Below are positions 9,863 through 37,348 of a stretch of 64,000 bases of DNA, piece after piece. Numbering within the stretch: position 1 is the first letter of the stretch; the number at the start of each line of letters is the position of its first letter. A program made the position numbers and the translations under genes. The notes below the pieces were generated by a model, which was given only the letters and a program-made list of their open reading frames with translations, searched no databases and was not told the origin of the DNA. Origin of the DNA: Nocardiopsis eucommiae (lineage in GTDB: Bacteria; Actinomycetota; Actinomycetes; Streptosporangiales; Streptosporangiaceae). The DNA lies in assembly GCA_018388625.1 (NCBI GenBank), contig CP074402.1:1736001-1800000 (forward strand), in the 5' to 3' direction.

Positions 9863-11332
9863 TCAGCCGAGAACCAGCCACAGAAGGCTGACGAGTAGGA
9901 AGCCCGACACGCCCAGCACCGTGGTGAGCACGGTCCACGTCCGCAGGCCGTCGGAGACCGACAGTCCCAGGTAGCGGGTCACCACCCAGAAACCGGAGTC
10001 GTTGACGTGCGACAGGCCGAGCGCCCCGAAGGCGATGGCGAGCGCGATGAGCGCCACCTGGATCGAGGAGTAGTCGCCGGTCAGCGCCATGTCGGCGAGC
10101 AGCTCCGAGGAGGTGAGGATCGCGACGGTCGCCGACCCCTGCGAGGCGCGCAGCGCCAGCGAGAGGACGAACCCGAGCAGAAGGATCGGCAGGCCGGTCC
10201 CGGCGAGGGTGTCGGCCAGCGCCTCGCCCACGCCGCTCTCGGTGAGCACGTTGGCGAACACGCCGCCCGCGCCGGTCACCAGGACGACGATGGCCACCGG
10301 GGGCAGCGCGGCCTCCATGACCTCACCGATGTGGGCGGTCGACCACCCGCGCCGCACCCCGAGCAGGAAGTACGCGAGGACCAGGGCCACCAGCAGCGCG
10401 AAGACCGGAGCGCCCACGAACGAGAGCACGGGCAGCAGCGGGTGGTCCTCGGGCAGGACCGTGGCCGAGGTGGTGCCGACCATGATGAACGCCAGCGGTG
10501 TGAGGATCAGTCCGAGGATGGTCCACACACTGGGCGGGGTCTCGGTGCGGGCGAGCGTCCTGGCGGAGCCGCCGGAACCGGAGCCGCCGGAACCCGAGCC
10601 GCCGGAACCCGCCTGCTCCGCGTCGCCCTCGTCCCCGCCGCCGAACGCCTCGAACTGCGCGCGGGTCGCCGCCAGCATGGGGATCTCGCGGCGGTTGAGC
10701 CACTTCGACACGAAGTGCGCGATCACGGCCAGCGGCGCGCAGACGATCAGGCCCAGGATCAGGATCCAGCCGATGTCGCCCTCAAGCAGCGCGGCGCCGC
10801 CGACGATGCCCGGATGCGGCGGTACGGAGACGTGCACCGCGAGCATGATCCCGGCGACCGGCAGGCCGAACTTGACCGGGTCCACCCCGGCCGCCTTCGC
10901 GAACCCGTAGATGATCGGCACGAGGATGATGAAGCCGACGTCGAAGAACACCGGGACGGCGAGGATCAGCGCGGCGCCGGTGAGGGCGGCCGCGACCCGC
11001 TTGGGCCCCAGCCAGCCGGTGAAGCGCCCGGCCAGGCTCTCGGCCCCGCCGGAGACCTCGATCATGCGACCGAGCATCGCGCCCAGGGCCACCAGCAGCG
11101 CCACCGAGCCCAGGGTCCCGCCCATACCGGCGGTGATGGTGGCGATGATGCCGAGCTGTTCGGGTGTGTCGCCGGTGGCGGGGACGGTGACCAGGGGCAT
11201 GCCCGAGACCAGTCCGACGAGGATGCTCACCAGGAGCAGGGCCACGAACGCGTGGACCTTGAAACGGATGATCAGGACCAGCAGCAGGGCGATGCCGCCC
11301 GCCGCGATGCCCAGAAGGGTGAGGGCGCCCAT
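9863..11332 (-). CDS. GntP family permease (gluconate/sugar-acid:H+ symporter)
   Basis: A 489-residue GntP-family membrane protein with about 12 hydrophobic segments. Family hallmarks are AGMGGTLGSVALLVALGAMLGRMIE in the first half, HVSVPPHPG, and the C-terminal GLSHVNDSGFWVV. A Gly/Ser linker of repeated GSGGS units (about residues 242-255) in the central loop is unusual but harmless. It imports a hydroxy-acid sugar; the two genes upstream (four-carbon sugar-acid dehydrogenase and kinase) suggest threonate or erythronate rather than gluconate. It lies 6 bases after the dehydrogenase gene and is last in the operon. Confidence 0.9.
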   Translation of the reverse strand: MGALTLLGIAAGGIALLLVLIIRFKVHAFVALLLVSILVGLVSGMPLVTVPATGDTPEQLGIIATITAGMGGTLGSVALLVALGAMLGRMIEVSGGAESLAGRFTGWLGPKRVAAALTGAALILAVPVFFDVGFIILVPIIYGFAKAAGVDPVKFGLPVAGIMLAVHVSVPPHPGIVGGAALLEGDIGWILILGLIVCAPLAVIAHFVSKWLNRREIPMLAATRAQFEAFGGGDEGDAEQAGSGGSGSGGSGSGGSARTLARTETPPSVWTILGLILTPLAFIMVGTTSATVLPEDHPLLPVLSFVGAPVFALLVALVLAYFLLGVRRGWSTAHIGEVMEAALPPVAIVVLVTGAGGVFANVLTESGVGEALADTLAGTGLPILLLGFVLSLALRASQGSATVAILTSSELLADMALTGDYSSIQVALIALAIAFGALGLSHVNDSGFWVVTRYLGLSVSDGLRTWTVLTTVLGVSGFLLVSLLWLVLG

Positions 11333-25099: not shown

Positions 25100-25972
25100 T
25101 CACCTCCGCGTGAGCTGGTGATACTCCTCCGCGATGCGCTCCAGATGCTCGACCGCCTCATCTCCGAAGCAGGCCAGTTTCTCCAGTTCACCGAAGAGGT
25201 CAATGTAGGTCGCGATGTCAGCGGCGCCGGTCAGGGTCGCCGTCGCTGTCTCGGTAGCCACGACGACAGCGTCTTCGTCGTACACGTCAAAGGCATGGCC
25301 AGGGAAGACATGTACAGGTTGCGTCCAAGGGATGATGCCAACCTCGGTATTTCCGCCCCGAGCCGCAATCGTGGCGATCTGTTCGATCTGCTTCGCCATG
25401 ATCGACGCAGAACCCACATGCCATCGCAAGGCGCCTTCCGGCATAATCAACACATACCGGGTCGCGCCCGCTCTGAGAGCGCGGTGCCGCTCTTGCCGAG
25501 CCTCGATGGCAGCCTCGACTTCATCTGCCGAAACCTTGTCTCGGGGGTCATCAAAGATGCAGCGTGTGTACTCACGAGTCTGCAACGCTCCCAGCACCAG
25601 CGCGGGTTCATATGAGCGCACCACGGCGGCGGCAGCTTCCAGCTGCGTCACCCTGCTCTGGAACTGGGACACTCCCCGGGCCATGATCACCCGTGCTGAG
25701 GCCTCCTCACGTAGGGATTCAGCCAAGAGCAGCAGCTTGGTGCGCTCGGTTTTGGGGATTTCGTAGACCCGGCAGAGCTCGACCACGTCATCCACAGAGG
25801 GCAAGAGCAGGGATCGTTCGATCTTGGAGATCTTGGACTGCGACATGCCCGCAGCCTGACCTGCTCGCACTCCGCTCAGCTTTGCGCGCCCACGGGCCTC
25901 TCTCAGGGCGCGAGCGAGCCGATCGCGGGCTTGTGGCCCGCGATCGGTCGAAGCTCTAGGGGAGCCTGTCAT
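25100..25972 (-). CDS. XRE family regulator with DUF5753 domain
   Basis: A 290-residue regulator. The N-terminal helix-turn-helix (LREARGRAKLSGVRAGQAAG, then MSQSKISKIERSLLLP) is followed by the DUF5753 sensor-like domain (SYEPALVLGALQTREYTRCI, MPEGALRWHVGS, VGIIPWTQPVHVFPGHAFDV). The ATG at 25972 overlaps the stop of the upstream gene (ATGA). Such regulators in actinomycetes usually sit with small partner proteins, here DUF6879, and control nearby small operons. It is the likely reader of the two palindromes at 26726 and 26780. Confidence 0.9.
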   Translation of the reverse strand: MTGSPRASTDRGPQARDRLARALREARGRAKLSGVRAGQAAGMSQSKISKIERSLLLPSVDDVVELCRVYEIPKTERTKLLLLAESLREEASARVIMARGVSQFQSRVTQLEAAAAVVRSYEPALVLGALQTREYTRCIFDDPRDKVSADEVEAAIEARQERHRALRAGATRYVLIMPEGALRWHVGSASIMAKQIEQIATIAARGGNTEVGIIPWTQPVHVFPGHAFDVYDEDAVVVATETATATLTGAADIATYIDLFGELEKLACFGDEAVEHLERIAEEYHQLTRR

Positions 25973-26499
25973 GCGGTCCGGTTTGCTCTCCACTCTTCGG
26001 GACGACGTGCCCACCACCGCTCGAACGGTTCGGCTGCGGCCAACGCGGCGTCCCTGGCCTTCTGGTAGAGCTCCACGTTATCGACCAGGTCGGCCCCGAC
26101 AAACTCGCCGGTCTCGCTGTAGTGCATACGCAGCGGGTACTTGTCGTCAATCAGCCAGAAGTCGTGGTCAACCAGGACGGTGGGGAGATCACGTTCGGCC
26201 AGATCGAGGACATGGATTTCTTCTCCGGCCCCACTGTTGGGCACATACCCCCACTCACACTCGTAGCGGATGTAGTCGTTGAGTGGAGATCTGAGTACAC
26301 GCACCCGGTGTTCCAGGATCCCGGCTTCCTTCTCCGCTCGCAGGACGTCCAGCCACTGGTTCTTGCGTTCCCAGTCGGGCTCTGGCTCTCCGGCCTTGAA
26401 ACGGGCGAAGTCGTCTCCATCCGAGTCGACCTCATAGTGGTCCAACATCTCCAGTCGGAAGGCTGACTTGGTCAGGTGGTCATCGAAGAACTTCTCCAT
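25969..26499 (-). CDS. DUF6879 family protein
   Basis: A 176-residue protein of a family usually found next to XRE-DUF5753 regulators. Visible family features are SAFRLEMLDHYEV near the N-terminus, HRVRVLRSPLNDYIRYECEW in the middle and DFWLIDD further on. It is rich in acidic and aromatic residues with no membrane segment. The ATG at 26499 lies one base past the stop of the upstream gene; a GTG at 26517 overlapping that gene is an alternative. Function is unknown; partnership with the XRE protein is inferred from the ATGA overlap. Confidence 0.83.
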   Translation of the reverse strand: MEKFFDDHLTKSAFRLEMLDHYEVDSDGDDFARFKAGEPEPDWERKNQWLDVLRAEKEAGILEHRVRVLRSPLNDYIRYECEWGYVPNSGAGEEIHVLDLAERDLPTVLVDHDFWLIDDKYPLRMHYSETGEFVGADLVDNVELYQKARDAALAAAEPFERWWARRPEEWRANRTA

Positions 26500-26500
26500 C

Positions 26501-26704
26501 TCAGCTTCCGTGAGCACGAGCCACCTCTTGGAGCAGAGCGAGAGGAATCTCCACGACACTCTCCCCATCGGGGATGTTGATCCCGGTGATGTCTTTGTCA
26601 GCAAGGATGTAGCCCTGCACGACGAGTGTTCCGCGGTCGGTGGCGTAGACGGTCGGGCAGGTGCGCCGATTGCCGCATTCACTGGCGATCCAGGTCAGCT
26701 TCAC
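26501..26704 (-). CDS. Small hypothetical protein in the XRE operon
   Basis: A 67-residue protein starting at a GTG (26704) with GGAGG five to six bases upstream. It contains ECGNRRTCPTVYATDRGTLV followed by VQGYILADKDI and PDGESVVEIPLALLQEVA. I recognise the pattern as a small protein that often precedes DUF6879-XRE gene pairs in actinomycetes; no function is known. Two Cys in the CxxxxxC segment could bind a metal, but this is a guess. It is first gene of the XRE operon and divergent from the peptide-methyltransferase pair. Confidence 0.7.
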   Translation of the reverse strand: MKLTWIASECGNRRTCPTVYATDRGTLVVQGYILADKDITGINIPDGESVVEIPLALLQEVARAHGS

Positions 26705-26725
26705 AGGTCCTCCAGGGGGTCGAGG

Positions 26726-26747
26726 TGATTCCATCATGACAGGAATA
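26726..26747. promoter_or_regulatory. Candidate XRE operator, copy 1
   Basis: TGATTCCA-N8-GGAATA with the exact inverted repeat ATTCC-N9-GGAAT. It lies 22 bases upstream of the GTG that starts the XRE operon. The same 22-bp arrangement recurs at 26780. Confidence 0.55.
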
Positions 26748-26765
26748 CTCCTTTGCGTCACCCCC

Positions 26766-26794
26766 TTGTCGCACGCAGATGATTCCACTATTAA
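26766..26794 (+). promoter_or_regulatory. Predicted sigma-70-type promoter of the peptide gene
   Basis: TTGTCG (26766-26771) and TATTAA (26789-26794) are separated by exactly 17 bases, 49 bases upstream of the peptide ATG. The -10 element falls inside the second palindrome. Confidence 0.5.
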
Positions 26795-26801
26795 TGGAAT
26801 A
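26780..26801. promoter_or_regulatory. Candidate XRE operator, copy 2
   Basis: TGATTCCA-N8-GGAATA, the same pattern as copy 1 and 54 bp from it, with ATTCC-N9-GGAAT at 26782-26800. It overlaps the predicted -10 box, so binding would block transcription of the peptide gene. Confidence 0.55.
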
Positions 26802-26842
26802 GGTGGCGGATCGCCATCACGGACTCCCTCAAGGAGCAGCCC

Positions 26843-26986
26843 ATGCGGGTTCCCGGAAGCGTCGTGTACAACAAGCACGAGGACAACTCGACTTCGGACG
26901 GGCACAAGCCCGACCGGCCGATCCCTCCGCCCACCCCCAACGACGGGGGCTCCGGCGGTGGCAAGCACGAGAGGGACGACAAGTAG
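26843..26986 (+). CDS. Small peptide, candidate RiPP precursor (imiditide-like)
   Basis: A 47-residue hydrophilic peptide with AAGGAG seven bases before the ATG. The N-terminal MRVPGSVVYNK is followed by an Asp/Lys/His-rich middle, a Pro stretch (RPIPPPTP) and a Gly-rich, charged tail. It has no Cys and no signal peptide or membrane segment. Two Asp-Gly pairs (residues 19-20 and 34-35) and an Asn-Ser (15-16) are the residue pairs most prone to succinimide formation. Its TAG stop shares its last base with the GTG of a protein-isoaspartate methyltransferase homologue, so the two are translationally coupled. In imiditides and related RiPPs such a methyltransferase turns a precursor Asp into an aspartimide. 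The precursor role is inferred from size and context, not from sequence similarity I can cite. Confidence 0.65.
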   Translation: MRVPGSVVYNKHEDNSTSDGHKPDRPIPPPTPNDGGSGGGKHERDDK

Positions 26987-28124
26987 TGCTTCTCCCACAC
27001 GAAGAGCTGGTCGCCCGCCTCGTGCGGGTGGGCGACCTGCCCCCGCACCTGCGCCCCTCCTTCGAAAGGGTCGAGCGGCACCGGTTCCTCCCGGACCGGA
27101 TCACCACCCCGGACGGGACCACCGTGGACCGTGCCCGGGACGAGGCCCGGTGGTTCGAGCTGGCCTATGCCGACATCCCGATCGTCACCCAGAGGGACGA
27201 CGGGGCCGAGCATGGCCCCGGGTATCCGACCAGCTCCGCCTCCCAGCCCACGATCGTCGCGGACATGCTCCGGCGCCTGGACGTCCTCCCCGGCATGCGC
27301 GTGCTGGAGGTCGGGACCGGCACCGGGTACAACGCCGCCCTCCTTTCGCACCTGCTGGGTGACGACGAGGTGACCAGTGTCGAGGTGGACGCTGAGCTGG
27401 CCGAGACCGCCCGGGTTCGGCTGATGTCAGCCGGGTTCACGCCCCTGGTGGTCACCGGCGACGGGATGCAGGGCTGGCCAGCCCGCGCCCCCTACGACCG
27501 GGTGATCAGTACCGCCGCCGTCCAACGGGTGCCCTACCACTGGGTCGCCCAGTCCCGTCCGGGCGGGAGGATCCTCACTCCCTGGGGCAACGCTTTCCAC
27601 AACGGGGTGCTGGCCGAACTCCGGGTCGGCCCGGACGGTACGGCGCACGGGCGCTTCGGAGGTGACGTGGCGTTCATGTGGGTGCGTGACCAGCGCGTGC
27701 CGAGGAGAGTGGTCGAGACCTACGTCCACCCTGAGACGCAGGAGTTCACGACCACGCGGACGGAGCTGTACCCGTACGAGCCGATCAGCGACTTCGGCGC
27801 GAGCTTCGCCATCGGGCTGCGGATGCCCACCGTGCTGAACCGGGTCGAGTCCAGTGAGTCCGACGGCCCTCGGTTCACGGTCCACCTGGTCGACCCCGAC
27901 ACCGGCTCGTGGGCGTCGTGGCACATCGACCCCGGCCAGCGGGGGACGGGGTACGAGGTCCGCCAGCACGGTCCGCGCGAGCTGTTCACCGAACTGGAGG
28001 CCGCCCACGCGTGGTGGCTGGGGAGGGCCGCCCCGAGCACTCCCGGTTCGGTCTCACGGTGTCCGCCGATCACCAACGGGTCTGGCTGGACGAGGAGTCC
28101 CACCTGGTCGCCTCCGCGCCCTGA
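26986..28124 (+). CDS. Protein-L-isoaspartate O-methyltransferase homologue, RiPP-type (one frameshift as read)
   Basis: About 379 residues, much longer than housekeeping PIMT (about 210). The N-terminal ERHRFLPDRI and the SAM-binding motif VLEVGTGTGYNAALLSHLLG are typical, followed by GDGMQGWPARAPYDRVISTA and PGGRILTPWG. A C-terminal extension of about 150 residues (TELYPYEPISDFGASFAIG, GYEVRQHGPRELFTELEAA) resembles that of methyltransferases found in peptide-maturation loci. A break in GGGG near 28022 (WWLG-EGRPEHSRF) is fixed by one G and leads to the stop at 28122-28124. No ATP-grasp, LanB or LanC partner is present, so the methyltransferase would be the only maturation enzyme here. A strong hairpin follows. 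Confidence 0.83.
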
Positions 28125-28165: not shown

Positions 28166-28201
28166 GGGAGGGCCCGGGGCGCGCACGCCCCGGGCCCTCC
28201 C
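28166..28201. terminator. Bidirectional terminator hairpin
   Basis: A perfect 16-bp stem (GGGAGGGCCCGGGGCG / CGCCCCGGGCCCTCCC) with a 4-base loop lies between the convergent methyltransferase and ribose-type transporter genes. Confidence 0.85.
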
Positions 28202-28219: not shown

Positions 28220-30171
28220 TCAGGAGAAGTCCTCGACGTTCTCCTCGGTGACCACCTCGACGGGGACCATCACGGTCTCCTCCAGGGCCTCGCCGTTCGC
28301 GGCGGCGATGGCGTTGCGCACCGCCGTCCTGCCGAGCTCGGCGGGCTGTTGGGCGATCGACGCGTGCAGCACGCCGTCCGCCACCGCCTCCAGGCCCTCG
28401 GGGGTGCCGTCGAAACCGATCACCACGGCCTCCTCGCCACGCGAGGACAGGGCTGCCGCCGCGCCCAGTGCCATCTCGTCGTTCTCCGCGAACACGCCGT
28501 CGATGTCCCCGTTGCCCTGCAGCATGTTGGTCATCACGTCGAGCCCCTTGGAGCGGTCGAAGTCGGCGGGCTGTTGGGCCACGACCTCGATGTCCGGGTA
28601 CTCCGCGATCCCCTCCTCGAAACCGGCGCCGCGCTCACGGCTGGCGGAGGTGCCCGGGGTCCCCTGGAGGACCACGATCCGGCTCTCCTCACCGAGTGCC
28701 TCGGCCATGGTCCGGGCCGCCAGGCGTCCCCCTCGACGTTGTCGGAGGCCACCAGGGTCGCCACCTCGGCGTCGGTGACCCCGCGGTCGGCCGCGATCAC
28801 CGGGATGTCCGCGTTGTTGGCACCCACCACCGGGGGACCGGCGGCGTCGGAGTCCACCGGGTTGATCACCATCGCGTCCACGCCGGTGCTGATGAAGTTC
28901 TGGATCTGGTCGGCCTGCTGGGAGGCGTCGTCCTGGGCGTCGGTGACCACCAGGTTCACGCCCGCCTCGTCGGCCTCGGCCTGGGCGCCGTCCCTCATCT
29001 GGATGAAGAACGGGTTGTTGAGCGTGGACACCGACATCCCCACGCGGGGACCGTCGGAGGAGGAGTTCGGGACGAGGAAGGACAGCGCGCCCACCACCAC
29101 GGCCGTGGCCGCGGCGGCGATGACGAGCTGGATCCCGCGTCGGCCCCTGCTCACCGAAGCTCCGGCCCCGGTGCCGCCACCGGCCCCGGTGCCGCCACCG
29201 GCACTGCCGGAGCGGCGGCGCAGCGTGTCGAACAGGACCGCGAGGGCGATGACCACACCGATCACGACCTGCTGCCAGAAGGCGGAGACCGACAGGAGGT
29301 TGAGCCCGTTGCGCAGCACCGCGAGGATGAGCGCGCCGATCAGCGTGCCGAAGGCGGTACCCACGCCACCGGCCAGGCTGGCGCCGCCGATGACGACTGC
29401 CGCGATGGCGTCCAGCTCGTACCCCTGCGCGGCCTGCGGCTGCGCGGAGGCCAGACGGGAGGCGAGGATGACACCCGCGACGGCGGCGAACAGGCCGGAC
29501 AGGGCGTAGATGCCGAGCTTCTGACGCTTGACCCGGATGCCGGAGAGGCGTGCGGCCTCCTCGTTGCCGCCGATCGCGTACATCGCGCGCCCGGTGAAGG
29601 TCCGGCGCAGGATCACGGCGGTGATCAGGCCCATCACGACCATGATCAGCACGGGAACGGGCAGCCAACCGCCGATCGAACCGCCCAGGGCGGCCACGGA
29701 GTCGGGCAGGGCGATGGGGCTCCCCTCGGAGATCACCAGGGAGAGGCCGCGCCCCACGGAGAGCATCGCCAGCGTGGCGATGAACGGCGGGAGCTTGCCG
29801 TAGGCGATCAGCGCGCCGTTGACCAGACCGGCGGCGGTGCCCGTGGCGGCGGCCAGCGGCAGCGCCAACCAGACCGGCACCCCCTCGACCGTGGCCAGGA
29901 ACGCCAGCACCGTCGCGGACAGCGCCGCGACCGAACCCACGGACAGGTCGATCCCGCCCGCGATGATCACGAAGGTCACGCCGAAGGCCAGGACCGCGAT
30001 CACGGCCGCCTGGACACCCACGTTCAGCAGGTTCTGCGCCGTGAGGAAGTCGTCGGACAGCAGCGACATGACCACGACCAGGAGGGCCAGGGCGGTCAGC
30101 GCGCCGTTCTCCAGCAGGAAGCGCCGCACGGCGGGCCAGGCGCCGCCGCTCTTGTCAGTGTCAGTGGCCAT
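28220..30171 (-). CDS. Ribose-type ABC transporter permease fused to substrate-binding domain (one frameshift as read)
   Basis: About 650 residues. The first 320 or so form an RbsC-type permease (VTFVIIAGGIDLSVGSVAAL, GKLPPFIATLAMLSVGRG, RRTFTGRAMYAIGGNEEAA, GASLAGGVGT). A Gly-rich linker and one further membrane segment (about residues 355-375) then lead into an RbsB-type binding domain (VGMSVSTLNNPFFIQMRDGA, MVINPVDSDAAGPPVVGAN, VVIGFDGTPEGLEAVADG). The fusion keeps the binding protein tethered to its permease, an arrangement known in some actinomycetes. The break in GGGGG near 28734 (DNVEG-GRLAARTM) is fixed by one G. The ATG is at 30171. Confidence 0.83.
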
Positions 30172-31696
30172 GGGGGCCCTCCACTCCGTTCTGTTCCGTG
30201 TCGGTTCGGGGGCGGCGGCCAGCGCCAGGGACATCACGGCGTCCTGCGTGGCGTCCTCGGCGGCCAGCTCCCCGGTGATGCGGCCCTGGGCCATGACGAG
30301 CACGCGGTCGCTCATCCCCAGCACCTCGGGGAGGTCGCTGGAGATCATCAGCACCGCGTGACCGGAGGCGGTCAGTTCGTTGACCAGGCGGTAGATCTCC
30401 ACCTTGGCGCCCGCGTCCACACCGCGCGTGGGTTCGTCGAGGATCAGCACCCGGGAGTCGGCCAGCAGCCACTTGCCGATGACGACCTTCTGCTGGTTGC
30501 CGCCGGAGAGGGTGCGCACGTGCTGGTCGATGCCGGACATGCGGACCCCCAGCTCACCGGCGATCCGGCGCGCGGAGGCCCGCTGGCCGGAACGGTCCAC
30601 GAACCCGGCCCGGCTGGTCGGACCGAGGGTGACCAGCCCGAGGTTCTCCTCCACGGAGGCGTCCAGGACCAGGCCCTGACCCTTGCGGTCCTCGGGGACC
30701 AGGCCGAGCCCGGCCCGCATGGCGGCGTTGACGTCGCCACCGGGCAGGGCCCGGCCGAGCACCTCGACCTCGCCGTCGTCGTAGGGGTCGGCACCGAACA
30801 CCGAGCGTGCCACCTCGGTGCGGCCCGCGCCGACCAGTCCGGCGAGGCCGACCACCTCGCCCGCGTGCACGACGAGGTCCACGTCCCGGAACCGGCCGTG
30901 GCGGGTCAGACCGCGCACCCGCAGCAGGGGCTCCCCGGGTGCGGGGCGCTCGCGCGGGTACTGCTCGTCGATGCTGCGGCCCACCATCAGGCGCACGAGT
31001 TCGTCCTCGGGGGTGTCGGCGGCCACGTGCGCCACCGAACGGCCGTCCCGCAGGACCGTCACCCGGTCGGCGAGCGCGCCGATCTCCTCCAGGTGGTGGG
31101 TGATGAAGACGATCCCCACCCCTCGTCGCGCAGGCGCCGGGCGATCTCGAAGAGCCGCTCGATCTCCCCGGTGGTGAGCACGGCCGTGGGCTCGTCCATG
31201 ATCAGCACGCGGGCGTCCAGGCTCAGCGCCTTGGCGATCTCCACCATCTGGAGCTGGGCGATGCCCAGGCCGCGCACCTTGGCGCGGGGGACACGTTCAC
31301 GCCCACCCGGTCCAGTAGCAGCGCGGCGTCGTTTTCCATGCGCCGGTGGTCGATCAGACCGAACCGGCGGGGCTGACGGCCCAGGAAGATGTTCTCGGCC
31401 ACCGTCACGTCCGGGACCAGGTTGAACTCCTGGTAGATGGTGGCGATCCCCAGTCGCGCGGCGTCCTGGGCGTCACGGATGACGACCTCCTCGCCGTCCA
31501 CGAGGACGCGCCCCCGGTCGGGGCGGTGGGCCCCGGAGAGCACCTTGATGAGCGTGCTCTTCCCGGCCCCGTTCTCACCGAGGAGGGCGTGGACCTCGCC
31601 CCGGCGGAGGTCGAAGCCGACCTCGTCGAGGGCCACCACCCCCGGAAAGGCCTTGCGTACGCCCTCGATGCGCAGCAGTTCGTGCGGGCTACTCAC
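30161..31696 (-). CDS. Sugar ABC transporter ATPase, RbsA type (frameshifts as read)
   Basis: A two-domain ATPase of about 512 residues. The first domain has Walker [20 protein letters not shown], the Q-loop [19 protein letters not shown] and Walker [12 protein letters not shown]; the second has [16 protein letters not shown], the signature [15 protein letters not shown] and DEPTRGVD. Breaks near 31293 ([13 protein letters not shown]) and 31119 ([12 protein letters not shown]) are each fixed by one base. As read the C-terminus runs on into the permease. One missing C near 30213 would give a natural stop at 30161 overlapping the permease start, which I consider more likely than a true fusion. 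The GTG at 31696 has AGGAGG upstream. Confidence 0.82.
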
Positions 31697-36017: not shown

Positions 36018-36138
36018 GAGCGGACCTCCCCGTCGACGCGATGTTCATGGAACCAAGCTTAGGGGGCCGGTGCCGGTGTCCCGCAGGGGCTGACGGGACC
36101 TCAGGGGTGTGGTGGTTCACAAGGACCCCCTTGCGCCT

Positions 36139-36157
36139 ACTTATATATCTTATAAGT
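36139..36157. promoter_or_regulatory. Candidate GntR operator before the CoA transferase operon
   Basis: ACTTATA-N5-TATAAGT, a perfect 7-bp inverted repeat, stands out as an AT island in GC-rich DNA. It ends 8 bases before the CoA transferase ATG, so binding would block initiation. Confidence 0.65.
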
Positions 36158-36165
36158 TGTTTGTT

Positions 36166-37348
36166 ATGAGATCACTGAGCAACCTGAAGGTCGTCGACGC
36201 GGCCACGCTCTTCGCCGGTCCGATGGCCGCCACCTACCTGGGCGACTTCGGGGCCGACGTCGTCAAGGTCGAGCACCCCCGTCGCGGCGACCCTGCCCGG
36301 GGCCACGGGCCCACCAAGGACGGGGTCGGGCTCTGGTGGAAGATGCTGGCCCGCAACAAGCGCACGACCACGCTCGACCTGTCCCAGCCCGAGGGGCAGG
36401 AGGTCGCGCTGCGTTTGCTGGACGAGGCCGACGTCCTCATCGAGAACTTCCGACCCGGCACCCTCGAACGCTGGAACCTCTCCCCTGAGACGCTCCTCGA
36501 ACGCAACCCCCGGCTCATCATCGCCCGCGTCACCGGGTTCGGGCAGAAGGGGCCGATGGCCCACCGTCCCGGCTTCGGGACCCTCGCCGAGGCCATGAGC
36601 GGCTTCGCCTCCATGACCGGACAGCCGGACGGACCCCCACGCTCCCGCCCCTGGCCCTGGCCGACGGGATCGCGGCGCTGGCCGTGGCCTACGCCGTCAT
36701 GGTCGCCGTGCACAACCGGGAGGAGACCGGTAGGGGGCAGGTGATCGACCTGGCCATCATCGAGCCCATCCTCACGGTCCTCGGCCCCCAGCTCACCGCC
36801 TACCACGCGACCGGAGCGATCCCGGAGCGGACCGGCAACCGGTCCACCAGCAACGCCCCCGCAACACCTACCGGACCCGGGACGGTCGCTGGCTGGCGAT
36901 CTCCACGAGCGCCCAGTCCATCGCCGAACGGGTGATGCGCCTGGTGGGGCGCGAGGACCTGGTGGACGAGCCCTGGTTCGCCTCCGGCCGCACCCGCTAC
37001 GAGCACGCCGACGAACTCGACGAGGCCGTGGGTTCCTGGATCGCCGCGCGCGACGCGGAAGAGGTGATCGAGGAGTTCGACCGGGCACAGGCGGCCATCG
37101 CGCCGATCTACGACGCGTCCGACATCGCCACCGACCCGCAGTACCGGGCCTTGGAGACGATCGTGCACGTGCCGGACGACGAGCTCGGGAGCGTGGCGAT
37201 CCAGAACGTGCCCTTCCGGATGTCCGAGAGTCCCGGCGAGATCCGCTGGGTGGGACCGCCCAAGGGCCGCCACACCGACGAGGTGCTGGCGGAACTCGGC
37301 TACTCCGAGGCTGCCCGGTCCGGGCTGCGCGAAGCGGGGGTCATCTGA
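36166..37348 (+). CDS. CaiB/BaiF (family III) CoA transferase (two frameshifts as read)
   Basis: About 394 residues. Family III CoA transferases move CoA between carboxylic acids. Features are LKVVDAATLFAGPMAATYLG, DFGADVVKVEHPRRGDPAR, the segment ARNKRTTTLDLSQPEGQEV, DVLIENFRPGTLERW, and VTGFGQKGPMAHRPGFGTLA carrying the region of the catalytic Asp. Breaks at the C5 runs near 36637 (DGPP-TLPPLALADG) and 36860 (NAP-RNTYRTRDGRW) are each fixed by one C. It overlaps the lyase gene by one base; together they suggest activation and cleavage of a branched hydroxy-dicarboxylic acid such as citramalate. Confidence 0.86.

Follow-up and report, generated by a model that had tools for sequence, protein, structure and literature searches.

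A candidate imiditide locus of Nocardiopsis eucommiae and an adjoining regulator cassette with paired palindromes

Introduction

A 47-codon gene and the methyltransferase gene that follows it raise the question of whether the two form an aspartimide-type peptide, and what controls the pair. They lie in the window, a 64,000-nucleotide stretch of Nocardiopsis eucommiae contig CP074402.1. The imiditide class of RiPPs was published in 2023 (JACS 2023, 145, 18834, as cited in PMC10787088), and a 2026 review of aspartimide RiPPs sees the larger challenge in connecting them with a biological function (PMC13001092). Their regulation would reveal the conditions of peptide production and any feedback of the peptide on its own control, so that the function of aspartimide peptides becomes testable. 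Taken together, an imiditide-kind locus, a modification most likely at Asp19 and control by a neighbouring cassette through two palindromes make up a probable account of this DNA.

Results and Discussion

The precursor peptide

The 47-codon gene has the make-up of a published imiditide precursor. The open reading frame at 26843..26986 (plus strand) translates to MRVPGSVVYNKHEDNSTSDGHKPDRPIPPPTPNDGGSGGGKHERDDK, a Cys-free peptide of 47 residues with 14.9% Gly, 14.9% Pro and 12.8% Asp and a net charge of -1. Published type I precursors have mean Gly, Pro and Asp contents of 17.3, 16.8 and 10.2% (PMC10787088), and the expected type I form, about 45 residues, rich in Gly, Pro and Asp and free of the type II Cys motif, is found here. 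The peptide matches no family in Pfam or NCBIfam, the lasso leader included, and the paired CXXCXGXG motif of type II pamtides does not occur in it. The original prediction had seen a Cys-free peptide gene of this length with a precursor that it did not recognise; the gene is as described, while the precursor can be placed by its composition.

The signals around the gene are of unequal quality. A ribosome-binding site, AAGGAG, is read from the sequence at 26831..26836 (plus strand), 6 nt before the ATG, and the TAG stop codon (26984-26986) overlaps the GTG of the enzyme gene (26986-26988) by one G, both as predicted. The claim that the gene has its own promoter holds only in part. TTGTCG-N17-TATTAA at 26766..26794 (plus strand) is a putative promoter found by eye as a weak match, and identical spacing of the elements can be read by eye in four related loci (L164-L167), but a strict promoter scan of the locus gave no hits.

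Conservation points to Asp19, in the sequence S-D-G-H, as the candidate modified residue. In an alignment of 11 upstream peptides Asp19, Pro26, Pro28, Gly36, Gly40, Glu43 and Arg44 are invariant, giving the highly conserved Asp near a conserved Pro or Gly that is typical of the class. Judged by eye, the Asp is kept in all 28 relatives from the protein database and is followed by Gly in 27; those relatives that carry an organism name come from Nocardiopsis, Streptomonospora or Marinactinospora. Asp34-Gly35, present in at least 90% of the 11 aligned rows, is a second candidate site.

The methyltransferase and its broken frame

The enzyme is an extended homologue of protein isoaspartate methyltransferase (a PAMT) encoded at 26986..28124 (plus strand) from a GTG start. 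It had been described as a PIMT homologue of about 379 residues. The homology is borne out (PF01135, 115 bits), but in the assembly the protein is not one frame: the frame breaks near 28017 and the homologous reading goes on in another, up to a stop at 28124. An orthologue from Nocardiopsis sp. NPDC058789 (P0030) is 97% identical, 379 residues long and encoded in a single intact frame. The best NCBIfam model for both is TIGR04188, with 313 bits for the window enzyme and 330 for the intact orthologue against a cut-off of 380, and neither protein reaches any NCBIfam cut-off. The predicted structure of P0030 aligns with 1DL5 over model residues 4-370, which gives it the C-terminal extension of more than 100 residues seen in the Thermotoga maritima PIMT; the window copy is frame-broken. 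Among solved structures, where only PIMTs were considered, several including 1JG1 and 2YXE match the catalytic domain, and the match of the C-terminal domain depends on 1DL5 alone, at an rmsd of 6.7. The WXXXGXP motif characteristic of these enzymes is found in 33 of 36 orthologues, P0030 among them, and is missing from the broken frame of the window.

The broken frame bears on whether the system is alive in this strain. A locus of the imiditide kind in which the enzyme gene is a real pseudogene would explain the break, which falls in the WXXXGXP region and costs the enzyme its motif, and broken copies do occur in relatives (the enzyme of L053, the peptide of L017). This is decidedly unlikely, because the 97%-identical copy is intact and the assembly itself is suspect: its completeness score is 84% despite a 6.0-Mb contig, and the neighbouring genes for a sugar-binding protein and a P450 are also split, the former into two open reading frames while the latter matches only one fifth of its model. 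The split neighbours suggest indel errors in the assembly. For these reasons an assembly error is likelier than a dead gene as the source of the break. In the wider neighbourhood the P450 gene (23087-23902), the sugar-binding protein/ABC operon (28220-31119) and a CoA-transferase gene (36109-36744) appear split or shortened across frames.

A GC-rich hairpin with a 16-bp stem (28166..28201, plus strand), recognised by folding, lies between convergent genes and is a likely terminator. The segment 28160-28215 folds at -47.5 kcal/mol (z -7.5), with the main stem at 28166-28201. The strong terminator that had been said to close the unit is thus a strong hairpin, but it has no T-run, and a strict terminator scan found none.

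Linkage of peptide and enzyme

The peptide and enzyme genes are linked in relatives. Among 40 genus genomes a profile of 11 peptides matches 18 places, spread over 16 genomes, at E <=0.01, and an enzyme homologue lies directly 3' in 16 of these (in L048 it is read in two frames). The other two places are L053, which has enzyme fragments, and the weakest match (E 0.0058), which has no enzyme. Put in terms of strong matches, 16 of 17 are followed by a homologous enzyme and the seventeenth by fragments. In a sample of the taxonomic class the peptide matched 25 of 394 genomes, and all nine matches at E 1e-6 or better have an adjoining enzyme. More broadly, of the 80 nearest enzymes found, 61 have a type-I-like peptide upstream; among 2357 control windows, 17 do. 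The original prediction would have fallen had the peptide not been conserved beside the methyltransferase in relatives, and the linkage at 16 of 18 places speaks for it.

The peptide is also under purifying selection. In 11 of 12 pairwise comparisons its dN was 0.06-0.18 and its dS at least 0.47; the exception was L168 (dN 0.42, dS 0.68). The test used 14 loci, from which a motif filter removed L175 and L177, and included the near-copies L165 and L166. In eight of the 12 pairs the peptide showed at most half the nonsynonymous change per site of its enzyme. A peptide that is often better conserved than its enzyme appears unlike a fast-changing weapon peptide.

In the enzyme tree, built from 80 loci minus L139 and L153 and containing two pairs of identical rows, the window enzyme falls in a set of 20 rows, 18 of them with DG-core peptides (SH-aLRT 99). 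Some Nocardiopsis enzymes that are 59-65% identical to that of the window (L018, L020-L023 and L025) lack a DGHKP peptide; a conserved VTST... stretch precedes the enzyme start in these loci and is possibly another type of precursor. In L164 (G032:C3) a second, partial PAMT-like match with 40% identity lies directly behind the imiditide enzyme, at 10170-10649.

These results bear on the simplest alternative, in which the enzyme is an ordinary repair PIMT acting on damaged proteins and the 47-codon frame is there by chance and encodes no substrate. The catalytic domain is indeed of the PIMT type (PF01135, with 1JG1, 2YXE and others among the structural matches). The repair model TIGR00080, though, scores only 98.9 bits with the window enzyme and 95.2 with the intact orthologue, far under its cut-off of 159, the enzyme carries an additional C-terminal domain, and the peptide is selected and linked to the enzyme. 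On these family scores, the extra domain and the conservation, the repair explanation was rejected as very improbable.

Class assignment

The gene arrangement, the composition of the precursor, and the clade and predicted fold of the enzyme support assignment of the pair as an imiditide (type I pamtide) locus. Every class feature that can be examined at the level of sequence agrees with the minimal aspartimide-forming pair of the original prediction. A scan of 20 neighbouring open reading frames (12.2-41.9 kb) found no ATP-grasp, LanB, LanC, radical SAM or peptidase family and no Asn_synthase (lasso cyclase), in keeping with the predicted lack of ATP-grasp, LanB, LanC and protease genes; precursor and PAMT form a two-gene system with no other primary RiPP enzyme among these neighbours. 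Three other classes were considered for the pair. Membership of the graspetides (group 13) was rejected for lack of an ATP-grasp gene among the 20 neighbours, that of the lasso peptides (lassimiditides) for lack of a lasso leader match and of a neighbouring Asn_synthase, and that of the type II pamtides (cysimiditides) because the peptide has no Cys.

The known imiditide pairs NmaA-NmaM of Nonomuraea maritima and SpaA-SpaM of Streptomyces sparsogenes likewise consist of two genes (PMC13001092, PMC10787088). They share with the window pair a short, Cys-free precursor rich in Gly, Pro and Asp with a conserved Asp, and a PIMT homologue with a C-terminal domain, the WXXXGXP motif (in intact orthologues) and an acidic loop in the C-terminal domain (33 of 36 orthologues). 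The review of aspartimide RiPPs stresses a strongly positive precursor charge (PMC13001092), and here the window precursor, at -1, differs from the published ones as they are described. The residue after the candidate Asp is Gly in the window peptide and His in NmaA. Unlike NmaA and SpaA, again compared by description, the window peptide has a conserved DGHKPxRPxPPP core, and unlike those pairs the window pair adjoins a regulator cassette with paired palindromes. As a member of its class the locus is new but ordinary.

The proposed chemistry follows that of the class. The extended PIMT homologue would transfer a methyl group to a single Asp of the peptide, probably Asp19, and the methylated Asp would close to an aspartimide that mostly hydrolyses to isoaspartate. 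That the enzyme acts on this peptide, and which Asp it chooses, are suggested by the sequences. The product would remain linear.

The regulator cassette and its palindromes

A divergent set of regulator genes, overlooked in the original prediction, likely belongs with the locus. Its first gene is a small open reading frame of 78 residues without a Pfam family (26501..26737, minus strand). It is followed on the same strand by a DUF6879 protein of 202 residues from the start used here (25969..26577; PF21806, 141.9 bits, cut-off 23.9) and a 305-residue XRE-DUF5753 regulator (25100..26017; PF19054, 126.5 bits; PF13560, 51.2 bits). Reading the antisense frame 26501-26998 as one gene was unsupported, as only the 78-codon part has homologues. 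The cassette has the XRE-DUF5753 half (PF13560, PF19054) of an XRE-DUF397 (WhiJ/BldB-type) pair; no DUF397 partner was found in it, the partners being DUF6879 and the 78-residue protein without a Pfam match.

Two palindromes of the form ATTCC-N9-GGAAT, found by pattern search, lie 54 bp apart between the cassette and the peptide gene. The first (26728..26746, no strand assigned) is toward the divergent regulator genes, and the second (26782..26800, no strand assigned) is over the putative -10 element of the precursor gene. The pattern occurs nowhere else in the 6.1-Mb genome, and a reversed control pattern does not occur at all. At least one match exists somewhere in 27 of 40 genus genomes, and a pair within 100 bp in six of the 40 (spaced by 54 bp in five and by 79 bp in G021). 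These are exactly the six genomes with a full-length match to the regulator at E 1e-50, which are 65-76% identical apart from the window itself; a seventh genus genome has a 104-residue remnant of the regulator. The palindrome can be tied to the regulator because the pair co-occurs with a full-length orthologue of it. From these sequences we infer that the regulator binds the palindromes and gates both divergent promoters, so that the XRE-DUF5753/DUF6879 cassette likely controls the peptide-enzyme pair through the two sites. Among 19 upstream regions of relatives, four (L164-L167) have both palindromes at equal spacing and 15 have neither, which shows that the cassette is dispensable for the pair.

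RiPP classes opposite the cassette in other genomes

In other genomes, too, orthologous cassettes lie opposite RiPP genes. When 298 family genomes were searched with the regulator, nine matched at E 1e-60, of which three belong to other genera. In eight of the nine, site and cassette face RiPP genes: imiditide genes in five, aspartimide-type lasso genes in two (one decayed) and graspetide genes in one (decayed). G538, whose regulator is a far relative (38% identical), has no palindrome.

Two of these loci resemble those of lassimiditides, the DTAD lasso peptides with cellulonodin-2 and lihuanodin among them (PMC13001092), which are modified by a PAMT, as predicted for the window peptide. Lassimiditide loci have a lasso cyclase, PqqD and B2, and the window has none of these; the cassette with ATTCC-N9-GGAAT is common to the window and to G437 and G021. 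In G437 (XRE 50% and DUF6879 65% identical; an exact palindrome, plus another with a single mismatch seen by eye) the cassette faces a complete lasso cluster. This comprises a precursor frame with a D-S-M-D stretch, seen by eye and without a family match, a cyclase (NF033561, 329 bits, cut-off 300), PqqD (PF05402, 42.7 bits, cut-off 23.4), B2 (79 bits, cut-off 33) and a PCMT protein. In G021 the cassette (64, 79 and 75% identical for small ORF, DUF6879 and XRE) lies opposite the gene of a DTAD-core lasso precursor (NF033521, 19.9 bits, cut-off 19). What follows this precursor reads like the beginning of a lasso cyclase before breaking off, and no PAMT was found in the stretch. The cyclase-like frame has no Pfam or NCBIfam match; the name comes from a tblastn match between its first 117 residues and the stretch that follows the lasso precursor in eight of 13 DTAD loci, a stretch that in L216 holds an Asn_synthase frame. 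At this locus (L184, G021:C64, 16311-16817, minus strand) the DTAD precursor is kept beside an intact cassette while the cyclase-like reading ends after about 117 residues. In G428 (XRE 59%, one exact palindrome) the cassette faces a 117-codon frame followed by the N-terminal portion of an ATP-grasp ligase gene of the graspetide kind (L324, G428:C12, 6172-7136, minus strand). The ligase scores 124 bits with TIGR04187, over model positions 1-141 of 312 (cut-off 350), and no PAMT was found in the 13 kb around this locus.

More distant cassettes accompany other lasso loci. The G021 lasso precursor matches 18 of the 298 family genomes, and the 17 others comprise 13 with a DTAD core and four without. 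A full but diverged cassette (XRE 31-37% and DUF6879 31-44% identical to the window) stands directly upstream, in the same direction, in nine of the 13 DTAD loci. Of the other four, one has only the regulator and three have neither gene. A PAMT match is present in 12 of the 13, and the four non-DTAD loci have neither regulator nor DUF6879. ATTCC-N9-GGAAT was not found upstream of the nine diverged cassettes, which is neutral for our reading, as their regulators are just 31-37% identical.

Relation to described regulators

The unique palindrome pair, together with a cassette that faces three RiPP classes, is apparently undescribed as a regulated, class-hopping module. According to the accessible parts of PMC13097080 and PMC8939145, XRE-DUF5753 regulators near graspetide clusters (groups 11 and 13) had already been noted; in those parts the partners are named as DUF397 and no operator is given, while the partner in the window is DUF6879. 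Graspetide clusters also have an ATP-grasp gene, which the window lacks. A further parallel is WhiJ9 of Streptomyces venezuelae, which, in the accessible text of PMC10294661, binds direct repeats (CGXXCTCAAC) between its own gene and the divergent iosA and activates. As that text describes the system, both have an XRE regulator gene beside a target, a candidate one in the window, and repeated elements in the common intergenic region; the WhiJ9 sites are direct repeats, whereas the candidate sites of the window are palindromes and the partner is DUF6879. The words XRE, DUF, helix-turn-helix and transcription are missing from the main text of PMC13001092 and PMC10787088. The titles and opening lines of the searchable literature, which leaves out most subscription papers, hold no report that links such a cassette to aspartimide RiPPs, and DUF6879 is unnamed in that literature, from which the primary imiditide paper is also absent. 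The absence of the link is a weak argument because most subscription papers lie outside the search.

A dedicated regulator with candidate sites common to imiditide, lasso and graspetide loci would be a direct way into peptide function. One extension is that small ORF, DUF6879 and XRE-DUF5753 form a portable sensor-regulator unit that commonly controls aspartimide-type RiPPs of different classes, with the modified peptide as its cognate intracellular or pheromone-like ligand; the aspartimide or isoaspartate would move the regulator off the paired sites, and the peptides would be signals rather than antibiotics. In keeping with such a signal, the peptide is strongly conserved, the scanned neighbours include no recognised RiPP protease or peptide exporter, and cassettes face imiditide, lasso and graspetide genes; we nonetheless regard this extension as unlikely.

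DUF6879 genes and the cassette as a neighbour

DUF6879 genes are enriched near PAMT genes, and the cassette may therefore serve as a search aid. Among the first 70 genus DUF6879 genes in listing order 21 have a PAMT within 4 kb, where about 1% would be expected, given 266 PAMT matches over the roughly 230 Mb of 37 genus genomes; three PAMTs each have two DUF6879 neighbours and so count twice, and several flanks fall short of 4 kb. The wider count is 31 of 86 examined rows; the first 70 are quoted because later rows were partly preselected as RiPP loci. In 14 of 80 imiditide-type loci DUF6879 occurs in the 2.5 kb that precede the enzyme, against two occurrences in the remaining 785 kb or so.

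The same counts allow the cassette to be a mere neighbour, with palindromes that serve its autoregulation and a peptide gene that is targeted only weakly or incidentally. Cassettes of the XRE-DUF5753/DUF6879 type are widespread, and 49 of those first 70 genes lack a PAMT in the surrounding 4 kb, so that the family is not exclusive to aspartimide peptides; close relatives also keep the peptide-enzyme pair without a cassette. Against this, palindrome 2 covers the putative -10 of the peptide gene, the five genomes in which an orthologous cassette faces the peptide keep both palindromes 54 bp apart, and orthologous cassettes elsewhere face RiPP genes too, which makes a mere neighbour unlikely and favours control of the pair by the cassette. 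The genome has two other DUF6879 genes (L195 and L196, at 4.29 and 3.65 Mb), around which tblastn gave no PAMT or XRE match. In G014 a 39-position remnant of DUF6879 (G014:C1:5533945-5534067) lies beside the imiditide pair L012, which is now without a cassette.
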